Shown in pieces: positions 6,208-17,685 of a stretch of 21,114 nucleotides of DNA. Positions within the stretch are counted from its first letter, which is position 1; each line of letters begins with the position of its first letter. The stretch is from a virus, in the IMG/VR virus record IMGVR_UViG_3300006847_000129, positions 1 through 21,114 of that record. One strand, 5' to 3'. The notes below the pieces were generated by a model. The model was not told where the DNA came from. It ran no database searches and saw only the letters and a list, made by a program, of their open reading frames with translations. The translations under genes were made by a program, and so were the position numbers.

Positions 6208-7317
6208 GTGCAGCGCATCTGTCTAACAATGATCGTGCGCAACGAGGCGCACGTTATCGGCCGACTGCTGGCCTCGGTCAAGCCCTACATCACCCATTGG
6301 GCGATTGTAGACACGGGATCGACCGACGGAACGCAGGAGCTTATCCGGCGCGAGCTTGGCCCGTTTCCGGGCAGGCTTGAGCTTGAGCACTGGGTCGACT
6401 TCTCGACGAACCGCAACCAAGCGCTAACGCTAGCCCGTAAGCTCGGCGCCGACTACGCATTTGTTATCGACGCCGACGAAGAGCTCGTCCGGTTCGACAA
6501 CGGCGCGGCATGGGGACCATTCGAGGCCGACGCCTACGCGATCCGGCTCCGCCTCACCGGTACCGACAACGTTTGGTGCCGGCGGCAGCTATTCAAGCTC
6601 TCGTGTGATTGGCACTACGAGGACGAGATACACGAGCGGTCGGTAAGCTCGAACGCCAAGACGACCGGCAACATTCTCGGTTTCGAGATTGTTAGCCACA
6701 ACGATAGCGCACGCAACCGCGACGGCGCACAAGCCAAGGCGAAACGCGACGCCAAGACGCTTAGGCGCCTGCTGAAGCAACGCCCAGACGATCCGCGACT
6801 CGTCTACTACCTCGCCCAAACGCTAATGACGGCGGGCGAGATAGACCGCGCCATTGAGCTGCACGAGAAGCGGTTGACCCTCGGCGGGTTCGGCGAAGAG
6901 ATTTACGTCTCCGCCGCGCAGATAGCGGCTCTCAAAGAATTCCGCGGCGACCACGTTGACGACGTGATAGCCGCATATCAACGAGCCTACGAGCTCCGAC
7001 CCACGCGGGCCGAGCCGTTGTGGGCGATCGCGGCGTTGCTCAACGACCGCGGCAAGCCGGCACTCGCCGAGGTTTACGCCCGCGCGTCGTGTCGGGTCCC
7101 GCGGCCGAGTGACAGCCTCGTGGTGAACGAGTCGGTATACAAGTACCGCTGCGCCGACGAGCTAGCCGGCGCGCTTGCAAGGCTCGGACGCCTCGAGGAG
7201 GCGCTTCCGATACTCAAGCGGCTCGAGACCTTCCCGGAGTTGCCTCCGGAAGAGCTGCCACGGGTCAAAGAAAACCTAGCGTTCGTCGAAGCCGGCCTAG
7301 CCAAGGCGGCCGAGTGA
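6208..7317 (+). CDS. GT2-family glycosyltransferase with TPR-like C-terminus
   Basis: The start is a GTG at 6208 with GGAG just upstream (6197-6200). The 369-residue protein opens with LTMIVRNEAHVIGRLLASV (residues 6-24), followed by VDTGSTDGT (34-42) and the DxD-type motif IDADEE (87-92), with D88 and D90 expected to bind a metal and the nucleotide-sugar. These are hallmarks of GT-A, family 2 glycosyltransferases. From about residue 185 to the end come helical pairs resembling tetratricopeptide repeats (YLAQTLMTAGEIDRAIELH, then a second and third similar pair). The combination recalls SunS-like S-glycosyltransferases and related GT2-TPR proteins. It has no membrane segment, so it should act in the cytoplasm. 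Acceptor unknown; virion proteins are plausible given the position. Confidence 0.88.
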   Translation: MQRICLTMIVRNEAHVIGRLLASVKPYITHWAIVDTGSTDGTQELIRRELGPFPGRLELEHWVDFSTNRNQALTLARKLGADYAFVIDADEELVRFDNGAAWGPFEADAYAIRLRLTGTDNVWCRRQLFKLSCDWHYEDEIHERSVSSNAKTTGNILGFEIVSHNDSARNRDGAQAKAKRDAKTLRRLLKQRPDDPRLVYYLAQTLMTAGEIDRAIELHEKRLTLGGFGEEIYVSAAQIAALKEFRGDHVDDVIAAYQRAYELRPTRAEPLWAIAALLNDRGKPALAEVYARASCRVPRPSDSLVVNESVYKYRCADELAGALARLGRLEEALPILKRLETFPELPPEELPRVKENLAFVEAGLAKAAE

Positions 7318-7916
7318 ACGCCGCGCAGATCAAGAAGCTCGGCGCCATCTGGGGCGGCCAGCATGGGCTGCTCAGTGTGGCTGAGCTCGACGAGCTGATG
7401 CGGCTCGTCTTTCTCGCTTACGCCGACGCCAGCGGTACGCTAAGAGTTCTAGAAATCGGCCACTACCACGGTCTGTCTACGTGTGGGATTGTTCACGCGC
7501 TGCAGGGCGGGTGCGGCGACTGGCTCCTCGACACGCTAGACGCGCATTGCGCCGACCAGTGGGTGGGCAAGACCGAACCGCAAGACTTTCTCCGCAACAT
7601 GGCGGAGCACTTCGACGACCCCCGCGTAACGCCGCTGTTTGCGCGTAGCGAGACGTTCACAAGCGTCGACGGCTACGACGTCGTATTCTACGACGGCGAC
7701 CACGGCGGCGAGCAGATGCGCTTTACGCGCCTAGTCGACGCCTCGCCCCGAACCAAGCTTTTCATATTCGACGATCGCGACTTTTCGGTACCCGAGCTCT
7801 GTTGCGGGTACCTGCTAGCCAAGGGCTGGCGCGACGAGTCGCTACCGTTCGCCCGTCTCCCGGGCGACAAGACGAACCCCGAGACTATGACACTCGGAGT
7901 GTTTCGCCGTGACTGA
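7314..7916 (+). CDS. Class I SAM-dependent methyltransferase-like protein
   Basis: The GTG start overlaps the glycosyltransferase stop (GTGA), so the two are coupled. Motif I of the Rossmann methyltransferase fold is LRVLEIGHYHGLST (43-56), with the acidic E47 and a G-x-x-x-G loop that binds S-adenosylmethionine. Motif VVFYDGDHGGEQ (123-134) matches the 'iDGdHsye' strand-turn of the Methyltransf_24-type family, with D127, D129 and H130. The 200-residue length fits a minimal catalytic domain. Members near glycosyltransferases often methylate sugars, but the substrate cannot be read from sequence. It is flanked on both sides by sugar-transferring enzymes, which supports a combined glycan synthesis and capping role. 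Confidence 0.82.
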   Translation: MNAAQIKKLGAIWGGQHGLLSVAELDELMRLVFLAYADASGTLRVLEIGHYHGLSTCGIVHALQGGCGDWLLDTLDAHCADQWVGKTEPQDFLRNMAEHFDDPRVTPLFARSETFTSVDGYDVVFYDGDHGGEQMRFTRLVDASPRTKLFIFDDRDFSVPELCCGYLLAKGWRDESLPFARLPGDKTNPETMTLGVFRRD

Positions 7917-8853
7917 CGAGCGCGTCTACCTCGGACATGCTCGAGCACTTGCGCAACACGGTATCGGTCGCGGGTTTCGGCTTAACGCCGACCGGTTTCT
8001 CGAAAACGCCGACGCTAGACACTACCCGTCGCCGATTCGTTGGCTGTGGTTGCTCGCGTTGCGGCTCACGCTACGGGCTCCGCTTGCGGTTCCGGTAGCC
8101 TCGGCGCTAGCGATTGCGCCGGCCGCGTGGTGGGCGTTTGGCCTGCCGTGGTGGTCGCTTCCGCTTCTCGTCTCTTCGCCGCTTCTCTGGATTACGGCTC
8201 GCCGAGTGTGGGTTGACGCGCCGGTCGCGTTGCTCACTATCCTGGGTCTCGGGTTCGCCTCTCGTGGGGAGCCTACGGGCTTAGCCGCTTGCGTGTTCGG
8301 GGCACTCGCTTTACGCGAGGCTTCGGCGCTTGCGGTCCCGGCGCTCGCGGTTGCGTGGTTATTGGGTGGGCACGCGCTGTTACCGCTGGGCGCCTCGCTA
8401 GCTTTTGCAAGCGTGGCGTACTTAATCGGTTGCCGGTTGGTTGTCGGTCCCAAGTGGTTTCGCGTGATGCGAGCCGCCTCCGGCGGGCACGCTACCGAGT
8501 ACACGCGGCAGCATCAGAGTGGCGGCGCACACCGGTTGCTAGTTGACCTGGTGTTGTTATCGCCGGTCGCTTGTTTCCTGTCCGTTGTGCCGATGGTTTG
8601 GCCTGACGTGCTGTTCACGCTCCTGGCCCTGCTCGTCTTCCACGGGCTTGCTCCGGTCAACAATATCCGCACGGTCCTAGCTCTCGACGTTTTCGTTAGA
8701 GCTCAAGCGCTGCACTACGCCGTCGACGCTCGCGTCGTCTGGCTCCTCTGCTGGTTAGTGGTCGACGCCCTCGTCCTCTACGCCACTCGAAAAATCTACG
8801 ACCCAGTCACCGCCAATCTGACCGCGGCGCTGGGGATGAGTCCGAGAACATAG
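7909..8853 (+). CDS. Multi-spanning membrane protein, GT-C glycosyltransferase-like
   Basis: The GTG start overlaps the methyltransferase end by 8 bases. The 314-residue product has about eight hydrophobic helices between residue 43 and 297 and very high Leu/Ala/Val content. It begins TDERVYLGHARALAQHG, matching the acidic 'D-E ... Y ... A..L...G' first-loop motif of GT-C (ArnT/PMT-like) enzymes, and contains ARRVWVDAPVALLT, the second conserved GT-C region. Such enzymes move sugar from a polyprenyl-phosphate donor onto an acceptor at the outer face of the membrane. The protein lacks a transmembrane helix before the acidic motif, and a TGA at 7888 in frame leaves no room for one. It is shorter than the usual 450-550 residues. 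An unrelated membrane protein cannot be excluded. Confidence 0.75.
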   Translation: MTDERVYLGHARALAQHGIGRGFRLNADRFLENADARHYPSPIRWLWLLALRLTLRAPLAVPVASALAIAPAAWWAFGLPWWSLPLLVSSPLLWITARRVWVDAPVALLTILGLGFASRGEPTGLAACVFGALALREASALAVPALAVAWLLGGHALLPLGASLAFASVAYLIGCRLVVGPKWFRVMRAASGGHATEYTRQHQSGGAHRLLVDLVLLSPVACFLSVVPMVWPDVLFTLLALLVFHGLAPVNNIRTVLALDVFVRAQALHYAVDARVVWLLCWLVVDALVLYATRKIYDPVTANLTAALGMSPRT

Positions 8854-14222: not shown

Positions 14223-14298
14223 TGCGGGGTAGCTCAGTTGGCAGAGTCCGCGGCTGTTAACCGCGTTTGCGCTGGTTCGAGTCCAGCCCCCGCAGCCA
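14223..14298 (+). tRNA. tRNA-Asn, anticodon GTT
   Basis: Full cloverleaf: acceptor TGCGGGG (14223-14229) pairs CCCCGCA (14288-14294); D stem GCTC (14232-14235) pairs GAGT (14244-14247, one G-T); anticodon stem CGCGG (14249-14253) pairs CCGCG (14261-14265) around CTGTTAA, giving GTT; T stem GCTGG pairs CCAGC around TTCGAGT. Discriminator G at 14295 and an encoded CCA (14296-14298). It lies 16 bases after a neck gene, inside the structural operon. Confidence 0.93.
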
Positions 14299-14302
14299 CT
14301 GT

Positions 14303-14376
14303 TGCGGATTAGTGAAACAGCATCACAACGGGCTCATAACCCGTTATTCCGAGTGCAATTCTCGGGTCCGCTACCA
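14303..14376 (+). tRNA. tRNA with anticodon CAT (Met or Ile2), atypical arms
   Basis: The anticodon stem ACGGG (14328-14332) pairs CCCGT (14340-14344) around CTCATAA, anticodon CAT. The D stem GTGA/TCAC and T stem CCGAG/CTCGG are perfect. The acceptor GCGGAT pairs GTCCGC, but the first position is a T-T mismatch (14303/14372). CCA is encoded (14374-14376). The D loop (AACAGCA) lacks the usual GG and the T loop is TGCAATT rather than TTCRAAT. It may still be functional, as elongator Met, or Ile2 if lysidine-modified, or be degenerating. Confidence 0.75.
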
Positions 14377-14394
14377 GTTCAAGGGTGAGTCCAC

Positions 14395-14799
14395 ATGCTT
14401 AAGTTCCACGCTAAGGCCGACCTCTTAGTCAACGTCCCCGGCGTCTTGCCCTCAAAGGGCCAGCCGGTTCGGCGTGTCGGTCGCAAGTTCATTCCGGCTA
14501 AGAAAGACGCTAAGGGCGTCGTGATTGAGCCCGCGTCTTACCCGGCAACTAAAGAGCCGCACGAGTGTGAGGCGGACAGTCCCGCCGCGTGTGCACTCGC
14601 AAAGCAGTGTCGTCGTGGCGTTCTGTACGCCGCCGACCGCGAGACGGCCGAGTACTGCCAAGTTGATTTCGTAGATATCGAATTGAAGGACGGCGCCTGG
14701 GGTGAGCGGGCTCCGGTTGCCGTGATTGTCGAGCAGGGCAAGCGCGGCGCGAAAGAGATCCGCGACATGGCCAAAGCCTGGCCGAAGGAATCCGCTTAA
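14395..14799 (+). CDS. Small pre-sheath protein, unknown function
   Basis: The ATG at 14395 is preceded by AAGGGTGAG (14380-14388). The 134-residue product starts MLKFHAKADLLVNVPGVLPS, then G-Q-P-V-R-R-V-G-R-K-F (about 22-32), a basic region, and three Cys residues (58, 66 and 72, with further Cys at 88). The C-terminal helix is AKEIRDMAKAWPKE. It sits directly before the sheath gene where Mu-like phages carry a DUF2635-type protein, and the opening is loosely like that family, but the Cys-rich middle is not. I would not name it. It ends 3 bases before the sheath ATG. Confidence 0.65.
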   Translation: MLKFHAKADLLVNVPGVLPSKGQPVRRVGRKFIPAKKDAKGVVIEPASYPATKEPHECEADSPAACALAKQCRRGVLYAADRETAEYCQVDFVDIELKDGAWGERAPVAVIVEQGKRGAKEIRDMAKAWPKESA

Positions 14800-14802
14800 C
14801 AC

Positions 14803-16347
14803 ATGGGCGCATTAATCCCGATCACCGGCATCGGGCCGGATTTCAAAACCCCCGGCGCATACGCAGAGATCGTATTCGCACAGGGTCCCGCCTCCGCCGC
14901 GGCCGGCACTCGCGAGGTCGTGTTCGTTATGCCCAAGCTCAGCTCGGGCAGCTGGACGGCGGCGACTCTCTACGGTCCGATCGCAAACGAGGCCGAGGTT
15001 TCCGCGGGCGCCGGCAACGGTTCGCCGTTGCACCGAGCCGCACGCATCTTTCTCCAGGAGAACAAGGACGCCAAGGTTTGGGCGCTGCCCGTTGCTGAAA
15101 CTTCCGGCGGCTCGCCGGTAGCGGCAACCGCAACGGCCGTGCTGGCCACGACCGCTACGGGAACCGGCATCGCTACGGTGACCATCTGTGGCGAAGACTG
15201 CTCCTACACGTTCGAGAGTGGCGAGACCCCGACTAACATCGGCGACGGACTCGTCGAGGCAATCAACGGCAAAACCTGGCTGCCGGTCACGGCCGCCAAC
15301 GTCACGGGAACGGTAACCCTTACCGCCAAGCTGCTCGGCGCGAGCCAGGGCACGGCGACTGTACGAGTAATTGGTACCCGCGGCAGCATCACGGCGGGTG
15401 TGGGCACGACCCTCACGGTTTCGACACACCTCGGCGCGGTGGTTGCCGGGGCCGACGGAACAACGACCGAGCCCGCCTCGTTCCTGACGGCTCTTTCGAC
15501 GATCGACTCGGTACGTAAGTACTACATCGTTTCTAGTGGCAACACCGCCACGTACTACACGAACCTCCAGACGCACATCACGACCAAGTCGGCGCCTAAG
15601 CGTGGCTATCGGTCGATCGGTATCGTGGCCTACGTAGGCACGCAAGCCGCCGCGGTAACGCTGGCGACGGGCCGGAACTACGAACGGCTGAACCTCATCA
15701 ACCAAGCCAACTCGGACCACGACTGTGCCGAGCTCGCCGGTTGGTGGGCCGCCAAGCGTCAAGAGGGCGAGGGCGTCGACACGGCGAAGAACTTCGACTC
15801 GACGACCGGGCCCATGCTTAAGCGAGCGTTCAACCCCGCCGACTGGCCCGACCCCGACGAGCAGAGCGACGCCATCAATGATGGCGTTACCGTGGTTGCG
15901 ACCAACGACACCACGGCTTACGTGGTCATGTCGGTCAACACCCGTTCGAAGAACTCGACCGGTACGGTTGACGACTTCCGCGCGACCGAGACACACCGCG
16001 TGTCCGTTGCCGACGAGTTCGTTGACGAGACGCTGATCGACTGGGCGCTCAACCACGCGCAAAAGAAACTCTCCGACGACGAGCGGTTGGCGAACGGACA
16101 GGTCAACCCGGTCCAGCGTTTGCGCCGTGGCGTGATCACTCCCTCGAGCTACGCGCCGACACTCAAAAAGCGCATTCAGGATTTCGTCGACGCCGAGAAG
16201 CTGCAAGAGGCGGAAGCCTCGAAGGCTAGTGTCCGCGTTGTTAAGAGCCCCGTGAACAGCGGGCGGCTCGAGGCGGGGTTGGACATCCGGGCGATCGATC
16301 ACGCGCATCAACTCACATTGAGAGCCGCGGAAGTTTCCACCGGTTAA
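14803..16347 (+). CDS. Tail sheath protein (contractile tail)
   Basis: The ATG at 14803 follows AAGGAATCC of the upstream gene end. The 514-residue product starts with the 'tPGaY' motif (residues 17-21). It carries an Ig-like insert (about 125-190; GIATVTICGEDCSYTFESGE and later VTGTVTLTAKLLG) typical of Mu/P2-type sheaths. The central domain includes VRKYYIVSSGNTATYYTNL, and the conserved C-terminal domain (about 380-500) includes DTTAYVVMSVNTRSKN, RVSVADEFVDE and LRRGVITP. Sheath proteins polymerise around the tube and contract on host contact. This is the strongest evidence for a myovirus. Confidence 0.93.
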   Translation: MGALIPITGIGPDFKTPGAYAEIVFAQGPASAAAGTREVVFVMPKLSSGSWTAATLYGPIANEAEVSAGAGNGSPLHRAARIFLQENKDAKVWALPVAETSGGSPVAATATAVLATTATGTGIATVTICGEDCSYTFESGETPTNIGDGLVEAINGKTWLPVTAANVTGTVTLTAKLLGASQGTATVRVIGTRGSITAGVGTTLTVSTHLGAVVAGADGTTTEPASFLTALSTIDSVRKYYIVSSGNTATYYTNLQTHITTKSAPKRGYRSIGIVAYVGTQAAAVTLATGRNYERLNLINQANSDHDCAELAGWWAAKRQEGEGVDTAKNFDSTTGPMLKRAFNPADWPDPDEQSDAINDGVTVVATNDTTAYVVMSVNTRSKNSTGTVDDFRATETHRVSVADEFVDETLIDWALNHAQKKLSDDERLANGQVNPVQRLRRGVITPSSYAPTLKKRIQDFVDAEKLQEAEASKASVRVVKSPVNSGRLEAGLDIRAIDHAHQLTLRAAEVSTG

Positions 16348-16363
16348 GGGAGATTGATTCCAA

Positions 16364-16735
16364 GTGGCTATGCAGGATTATGGCAGACTCGGGGTCTTCT
16401 ACAATGACTCCCTGCTCACTCAGGTTACGAGTATCAATCACACTACGACCTCCGGTAACCAGCGCGTCGACCTTCTGAACGAGGGTCTCGGCGGCTTCAC
16501 TCCCGGTAGCGGCGAGTGCTCGATCGAGGTTGGTTTCGTTGTCCCCGCGGGCGGCACGGAAGAAGAGTTTCAACAGGACTGCGCTAACCGCGCATTCGTG
16601 AAGATGCAGATTCCGATCGGTAGCAAGGACTACATCGGAACCGGCAAGCTCGAGACCGTGTCGTTTCAGCAAAGCGTTAACGGCACCCTCGAGGGCACCC
16701 TGAACTGGATCGGCGAGCTCGCGCCACTCGAATAA
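16364..16735 (+). CDS. Tail tube protein
   Basis: The GTG at 16364 has AAGGGAGA (16346-16353) upstream; an ATG at 16370 is an alternative. The 123-residue product follows the sheath directly and is beta-rich (YGRLGVFYNDSLLTQVTSIN, then FVVPAGGTEEEF and a helix, and ETVSFQQSVNGTLEGTLNW). This order is normal for contractile-tail tube proteins, which form the inner hollow cylinder. The gene is followed by a 149-base intergenic region with a terminator. Confidence 0.88.
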   Translation: MAMQDYGRLGVFYNDSLLTQVTSINHTTTSGNQRVDLLNEGLGGFTPGSGECSIEVGFVVPAGGTEEEFQQDCANRAFVKMQIPIGSKDYIGTGKLETVSFQQSVNGTLEGTLNWIGELAPLE

Positions 16736-16769
16736 CCTAAAACGAAAACAACTTAACGGCGGTCGCCGC

Positions 16770-16785
16770 GCGACGGGTGAGTCGC
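16770..16785 (+). promoter_or_regulatory. Hairpin with loop complementary to downstream terminator loop
   Basis: GCGAC (16770-16774) pairs GTCGC (16781-16785) around the 6-base loop GGGTGA. That loop is the exact reverse complement of TCACCC (16839-16844) in the terminator loop. Over a longer stretch, 16775-16784 is perfectly complementary to 16835-16844 (10 bases). The loop resembles a Shine-Dalgarno sequence, but no gene follows. The 16736-16820 region holds no credible gene. Confidence 0.5.
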
Positions 16786-16820
16786 CAACGGCAGTAGAGG
16801 CGCACCGCTAGACTTGCAGG

Positions 16821-16871
16821 CCCCCGTGCGCGCTCGACTCACCCCGAGCCGTGACGGGGGTTTTGCTTTTT
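16821..16871 (+). terminator. Rho-independent terminator after tail tube gene
   Basis: CCCCCGT (16821-16827) pairs ACGGGGG (16854-16860). Inside, three further pairs (16829-16831 with 16851-16853) and GCTCG (16832-16836) with CGAGC (16845-16849) extend the stem to about 15 pairs with single-base bulges at 16828 and 16850. The loop is ACTCACCC. A T-rich tract, TTTTGCTTTTT, follows at 16861-16871. It could lower expression of genes after the abundant tube. Confidence 0.85.
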
Positions 16872-16884
16872 GAAGGGTGAGCAA

Positions 16885-17685
16885 GTGCAGAAACAACCGT
16901 ATCTCCCGCCCAAGGACGTCCCTGCTAGCGAGCTGTTTCTAAAGTTGATGGAGTCTCCGGCTCCGTCGGAGATTGTTGACCTCCCGCGCCGCGACAAGGA
17001 AGGAAATCCGGTAGGCAGAATCCGGATTCGCGTCCTGTCGATGCTCGACCACGACCGGGCGCGGGTCGAGGCACACAAGCGCGTCAAGCGCCTCGGTATC
17101 GCCACCGAGGACATGAGCGCCGAGCTCATCAAAGAGGTTCTTGGGGACGCCGCGGCTAAGGAAATCTTAGCCATGGCGTGCATGACGGAGGGCGAAGACG
17201 GCGCGCTGTCGGGGCGCGTGTTTCGCAACGCGGACGACGTTGAGAAGCTCCCGGCCGACGAGGTTGCGGCGCTGTTCAATGCGTACATGATTATTCAGCA
17301 CAAGTACGGTCCACTCGAGCACTTGATCTCGACGCCGGAAGAGCTGAACGCCTGGATCAAGCGGCTCGGGGAGGGAGCCGCTTCCGTAAGCCCTTTACAT
17401 CTCTTCACCTTGCCAGCATTGGCGGAGTTAGCGTCGTCGTTGGGGGCAAGGACCTATTTGCTATCCCGCACCCTGGCGTCCCTGTGGTCGACCTTGCCCG
17501 ATTCTTTGAAGTCCGACCTCAAGGACTACTCTTTGGACACCGACTTTTATGGCTCGCCTGCCGCGAGTACCACCGCGGAACCCTCTTCGGGAAGCTCTGA
17601 GAACTTCGACGACATGATCGACCTGATGCCCGGAGAGACGCTGTCGGCTGAAGATGCGATGGCGTTGGCGCGAGAGCGTAAGTAA
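16885..17685 (+). CDS. Probable tail assembly chaperone
   Basis: The chosen start is GTG 16885, with AAGGGTGAG (16873-16881) as ribosome binding site; a TTG at 16870 lies inside the terminator T tract and is unlikely. The 266-residue product lies between tube and tape measure, the standard place for tail chaperones that hold the tape measure during tail assembly. It contains RIRIRVLSMLDHDRARVEAH (about 45-64), a region often seen in these proteins, and long helices. A Ser/Thr-rich linker (SPAASTTAEPSSGSS near 220-234) precedes an acidic C-terminal helix. I saw no clear frameshift product, though many such genes use one. Confidence 0.72.
   Translation: MQKQPYLPPKDVPASELFLKLMESPAPSEIVDLPRRDKEGNPVGRIRIRVLSMLDHDRARVEAHKRVKRLGIATEDMSAELIKEVLGDAAAKEILAMACMTEGEDGALSGRVFRNADDVEKLPADEVAALFNAYMIIQHKYGPLEHLISTPEELNAWIKRLGEGAASVSPLHLFTLPALAELASSLGARTYLLSRTLASLWSTLPDSLKSDLKDYSLDTDFYGSPAASTTAEPSSGSSENFDDMIDLMPGETLSAEDAMALARERK

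Follow-up and report, generated by a model that had tools for sequence, protein, structure and literature searches.

Covarying pairings of a terminator loop with an upstream hairpin and with the next gene's ribosome binding site behind the tail-tube gene of a phage group

The window, that is, the whole 21,114-nt stretch of viral DNA analysed here, comes from a contractile-tail phage and carries its tail genes in the order sheath, tube, a 266-aa protein and tape measure. The tail sheath gene (14803-16347) was recognized by a PHROG tail sheath match and is preceded by a pre-sheath gene (14395-14799, plus strand), the ribosome binding site (RBS) of which is GGGTGAGTC at 14383-14391. The next gene (16364-16735, plus strand; 123 aa), whose 3' UTR is the RNA element described below, is supported as the tail tube by a model-based fold match, with which the sheath gene upstream agrees: the AlphaFold model (pLDDT 70.5) matches tail-tube and related tail proteins of the PDB (GTA virion protein 6tba, Sf11 tail, monocin MttP and SPP1 tube), and one member of the tube family gave a weak match to PHROG tail tube. 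The stretch from the tube stop to the next start (16736-16884) is followed by the gene for the 266-aa protein (16885-17685, plus strand; GTG start) and by the tape-measure gene (from 17690). Homologs of the 266-aa protein occupy the same place in relatives, where it is kept between tube and tape measure. The name "tail assembly chaperone", given to it in an earlier note on this DNA, agrees with its position; from family or fold the name gained no support, as the protein matched no Pfam or PHROG family and no PDB fold.

Other features of the window were noted in passing. Two tRNA genes (14223-14295 and 14303-14373) stand among the structural genes, shortly before the pre-sheath gene. An ORF at 1764-2432, between the terminase and portal-position genes, shows by eye an HNH endonuclease-type pattern (CxxC...LDHIRPVSSGG...CxxCN). 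Among the head genes, the stretch 6055-8853 encodes, on a by-eye reading, glycosyltransferase/TPR-like, methyltransferase-like and multi-span membrane proteins, which are probably accessory genes.

Behind the tube gene the element consists of three pieces, all on the plus strand. The decoy or kissing hairpin, read from sequence and fold and here called hairpin I (GCGACGGGTGAGTCGC, 16770-16785), has a 5-bp stem and the loop GGGTGA; the first motif copy, GGGTGAGTCG (16775-16784), was identified by sequence and covariation as complementary to the terminator loop. The terminator hairpin (16821-16860), found by folding and by a terminator scan, carries an 8-nt apical loop ACTCACCC (16837-16844) closed by CTCG/CGAG; this loop is part of the anti-Shine-Dalgarno-like anti-motif CGACTCACCC (16835-16844; below, TERM), and the stem is followed by the U-rich tract of the terminator, the T-rich sequence GTTTTGCTTTTT (16860-16871). 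The second motif copy, GGGTGAG (16875-16881), is the RBS of the next gene, ahead of its GTG start at 16885. The three complementary pieces and the terminator had been proposed in the earlier note and were borne out: read directly from the sequence, GGGTGAGTCG is the exact reverse complement of CGACTCACCC, the small hairpin is present, the RBS is complementary to the terminator loop where it had been placed, and the fold of 16736-16900 gave the same terminator hairpin and loop. Moreover, the scan predicted a terminator-like site at the same place, and the window has the GC-rich hairpin followed by a T-rich tract that is typical of Rho-independent terminators. Of the 4227 Rfam models, the matches in the window were two tRNAs only; none fell at the element at the gathering score, nor at up to E=1 within 16700-16950.

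Relatives were found with the tube and sheath proteins, which yielded about 44 distinct tube 3' regions. The full element follows the tail-tube gene in some 14 distinct lineages among these diverged relatives, which account for 20 rows of the tube tree. The hairpin I-TERM pairing is present in every element-bearing lineage and occurs alone in 3-4 of them (L050, L074, L099 and perhaps L093), in which the next gene has no matching Shine-Dalgarno (SD) site; in the remaining tube 3' regions there is a plain terminator, a different spacer or none at all. Spacing is steady, at about 55-70 nt from hairpin I to the terminator loop and about 29-47 nt from there to the RBS. The sequence differs from phage to phage while the order of hairpin I, terminator loop and RBS is retained: GGGTGAG, CTCACCC and GGGTGAG in the window; CATGGGAG, CTCCCATG and CATGGGAG in L005; TGGATAGG, CCTATCCA and TGGATAGG in L019; AGTGGG, CCCACT and AGTGGG in L036; CATGGGGA, TCCCCATG and CATGGGGA in L071; GGGAGGA, TCCTCCC and GGGAGGA in L004; and GTGGGAGACGA, TCGTCTCCCAC and GGGAGA in L015. 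The kissing motif of L074, AGCTGTGG, is not SD-like; the terminator of this locus (5960-6167) is followed by a 27-codon ORF that encodes a hydrophobic stretch and lacks a visible SD. In another relative, L081 (MW202476.1), a tail sheath gene lies at 4989-6548 in a record described as "Siphoviridae sp."; because it carries this gene, L081 is probably a contractile-tailed phage.

The element is dispensable, since many relatives lack it, among them L002 (65% tube identity) and L008 (63%), which are two of the closest by tube sequence and keep the gene order; both have plain terminators, no hairpin I and a loop that is not complementary to the RBS. Such absence in close relatives had been named beforehand as evidence against the element; it was indeed found, and it does not conflict with a function where the element is kept. 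A genome-contig scan with the sheath alignment gave one relative, a Chloroflexi MAG contig whose spacer is without the element, and a rescan of IMG/VR with the tube alignment gave no new loci.

Compensatory change across relatives, the check that the earlier note had proposed, was found for both pairings. In the in-register alignment of 15 lineages, which was set by complementarity and so carries a register bias in its pair counts and its outside-core test, both-side changes were seen at 9 of 11 pairs (28 cells) for hairpin I-TERM and at 7 of 11 pairs (24 cells) for RBS-TERM, and outside the GGGAG core the permutation counts were 0/50000 and 16/50000, respectively. The scores were 0.359 for hairpin I-TERM (0.173 shuffled, 0/500; slid registers at most 0.156) and 0.347 for RBS-TERM (0.157 shuffled, 0/500; slid registers at most 0.184). 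Because the in-register alignment was chosen by complementarity, the claim rests on permutation tests in windows defined by position only. One of these took every spacer of 100 nt or more, 26 in all after near-identical groups had been reduced to one member each, without selection for the element and with windows fixed by distance from the stop and the start: for hairpin I-TERM and for RBS-TERM, pairing with a phage's own partner exceeded pairing with the partner of another phage in 20000 of 20000 permutations, and the identity between hairpin I and RBS was likewise greater within than between phages in 20000 of 20000. When the position-only windows were taken from the element-bearing lineages only, 0 of 20000 permutations reached the own-partner pairing; spacers without the element showed no excess of RBS-TERM pairing.

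The tube tree gave the same picture at finer scale: the motif switches inside well-supported clades with all three pieces following, as in L072 (CATGGGAG) versus L076 (CATGGGGA), and in L106, which has GGGAGGA beside a group with CATGGGAG. Because related viruses changed all three pieces together, the RNA pairings at these sites appear to be real and, as judged from comparison of sequences, are very probably under selection.

None of 2000 dinucleotide shuffles of the 152-nt spacer matched the observed joint pairing score. When 767 kb of related loci were scanned agnostically for the pattern w, reverse complement of w, T-run and w before a start codon, long triples turned up solely at the tube junction (the window and homologous spacers), besides a handful of short matches, as in shuffled sequence. 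Pattern scans of the whole of IMG/VR with two motif versions, GGGAGR and ATGGGAG, both found the element solely at the tube junction of this phage group; as the patterns covered just these two, other motif versions may occur elsewhere in IMG/VR. Matches outside the group (L120, L124, L126, L127 and L129) were rejected on reading as unrelated low-complexity or coding sequence.

Several relatives have an extra gene between the terminator and the chaperone-position gene (L004, L048, L072/L130, L015, L021, L019 and L081). In these it is the RBS of the inserted first gene that carries the match to TERM, though the gene is unrelated, and the chaperone-position gene's own RBS, examined in L004 and L048, has no match. 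In L047 and L048, moreover, the tube end and the RNA module are the same as far as the RBS, and the genes that follow differ; here a swap at the RBS has occurred naturally. Because the RBS of the inserted gene carries the match, the target would be the first gene after the terminator, whichever that is, and a role limited to the chaperone/tape-measure ratio is not supported. The earlier suggestion that competing pairings set the ratio of tube to chaperone and tape measure is thus upheld by covariation as far as the competing complementarity is concerned, and not for that specific ratio. A possible extra target is the pre-sheath RBS (14383-14391, plus strand), with a 9-nt match to the terminator loop; the homolog in L015 has the RBS GGGAGACG, with an 8-nt match to its own terminator loop. 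This pre-sheath match was not significant across relatives (p about 0.11), and other RBSs of the same phages showed no general match to their own terminator loop and no enrichment.

Predicted folding places the pairing bases in loops. With local folding, the unpaired probability of the TERM loop core was 1.00 in the window and on average 0.85 over 16 loci (0.34 for the segments), and that of the upstream motif copy in its hairpin loop was 0.76 (0.46 for the segment). Relatives have a hairpin with a G-rich loop at the hairpin I position; in the window, hairpin I is less clean than in relatives, the least clean of the set, because an alternative hairpin competes when a shorter segment is refolded. 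Predicted duplex energies, which leave out kissing-loop and pseudoknot geometry, were strongest for hairpin I with TERM (about -20 kcal/mol), followed by RBS with TERM (about -15) and by RBS with the 16S anti-SD (about -7.5), a ranking that holds in 15 of 16 loci and is reversed in L108. Because the same TERM bases are used, the hairpin I-TERM and RBS-TERM pairings are mutually exclusive; as the pairing bases sit in loops, neither would need to break the terminator stem.

These features can be assembled into a cis-acting three-way RNA switch on the read-through mRNA that gates translation, a mechanism for which we see an even chance. Most transcripts would stop at the terminator and serve to make tube protein, while read-through transcripts would carry the RBS, which the TERM loop could mask as an anti-Shine-Dalgarno sequence. 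Since hairpin I is transcribed first and pairs more strongly, by default it would presumably hold TERM by kissing, leaving the RBS free; if hairpin I were unavailable (bound, cleaved or melted), TERM would take the RBS and the downstream gene would be shut. Expression of the gene after the tube would in this way be lowered and tuned at two levels, termination and translation, and terminator and switch together would set the amount of the next protein per tube protein. Translation gating cannot be the whole function, because L050, L074, L099 and perhaps L093 keep hairpin I-TERM without a matching SD.

For the same reason, that some lineages keep the hairpin I-TERM pairing alone, a role in termination or 3'-end stability is the serious and main rival: kissing at the end of the tube mRNA would tune terminator efficiency or protect the 3' end of an abundant mRNA, with RBS complementarity secondary. 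The hairpin I-TERM pairing is the longer and stronger one, no element-bearing lineage lacks it, L050, L074 and L099 included, and the L074 motif does not resemble an SD. We nevertheless regard this reading as rather unlikely, given that the covariation of RBS-TERM is just as clear in about 14 lineages and extends beyond the SD core, and that the pairing bases lie in loops and do not compete with the terminator stem. Action in trans is less probable still: terminated tube transcripts or their 3' fragments would behave like small RNAs, the terminator loop masking RBSs on other phage mRNAs, as the CUCCC terminator loop of the listerial sRNA LhrC does with GGGAG (PMC4132741). The pre-sheath match (9 nt in the window, 8 nt in L015) fits such a role, but that match is not significant across relatives, other RBSs of the same phages generally have none, and the match follows the first downstream gene whatever its identity.

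The remaining explanations meet the covariation head-on. A protein, either a phage translational repressor or a CsrA-like one, might bind both the G-rich loop of hairpin I and the RBS that resembles it, as the sequence shared by hairpin I loop and RBS within each phage would allow; yet the shared sequence varies among phages and the terminator loop tracks it as its complement, which protein binding does not need. The consensus of CsrA sites includes GGA, which the motifs of the window and L009 lack, and we consider a protein-based explanation very unlikely. The direct repeats, 7-9 bp long and spaced by about 100 bp, look like the target-site duplications of an inserted element, or might be operator repeats, but the inverted copy between them changes in step with the repeats and is placed in RNA loops by predicted folding, and in these loci the agnostic scan gave no further long triples of this kind; a cause at the DNA level is accordingly most improbable. 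The covariation led us to reject all three of target-site duplication, operator repeats and CsrA-type sites. Chance together with the shared SD consensus is scarcely credible: all RBSs are G-rich, which raises the background complementarity seen in the off-diagonal values, but the excess of own-partner over other-phage pairing in all 20000 unselected permutations refutes it, and since the signal persists outside the GGGAG core, the consensus is no explanation.

Known systems share parts of the arrangement, and none of LhrC, the corrinoid riboswitch and pAD1 par matches it. In LhrC of Listeria, CUCCC in a terminator loop pairs with GGGAG at the Shine-Dalgarno site and blocks translation in trans (PMC4132741). 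The phage element resembles this type of Gram-positive sRNA (UCCC/CUCCC terminator-loop motif) in its C-rich anti-SD loop complementary to an SD; LhrC is a separate RNA with targets in trans, whereas the phage loop is placed in cis, between two genes, together with a competing hairpin of its own that has the RBS sequence. In the corrinoid (cobalamin) riboswitch, whether an RBS hairpin or terminator forms depends on the L5-L13 kissing loop (PMC10653944), and complementarity and covariation suggest a similar kissing of an upstream hairpin loop with an expression-platform loop here; the phage element differs in that it has no aptamer and no Rfam match, the cobalamin covariance models included, in that the kissing bases themselves pair with the RBS, and in its location between two genes behind a tail gene. 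The type I toxin-antitoxin system pAD1 par (fst / RNA II) combines terminator-loop kissing with repeats that mask the Shine-Dalgarno site (PMC7472228). It comprises two convergent RNAs and a toxin gene, whereas the phage element lies on one strand in one operon without a toxin; in place of the convergent antisense RNA and toxin peptide gene of a type I system, the next gene encodes the conserved 266-aa protein on the same strand. Ordinary read-through terminators, of which L002 and L008 have the plain form, share a Rho-independent-type terminator behind a structural gene, but lack hairpin I and the RBS-complementary loop. A literature search, which covered open-licence papers only and is thus weak evidence, found no description of the arrangement. 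We therefore put forward, with slightly less assurance than the switch itself, that this may be an undescribed class of phage regulatory RNA, in which the terminator loop would be the next gene's anti-Shine-Dalgarno sequence and would itself be under the control of a decoy hairpin further upstream with a copy of the RBS; a short, freely changing sequence would in this way link read-through to translation of the next gene.

Long-tailed phages need many copies of the tube protein and few of the next proteins encoded in the same operon. The element would offer an RNA-only step-down of expression at one such junction, through a terminator, a decoy hairpin and RBS masking, and its three-way covariation makes it directly testable. 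A design in which any 7-10-mer would do, provided that its three copies match, might be used as a part for genetic circuits, and the element would add a structured RNA family that is absent from Rfam.
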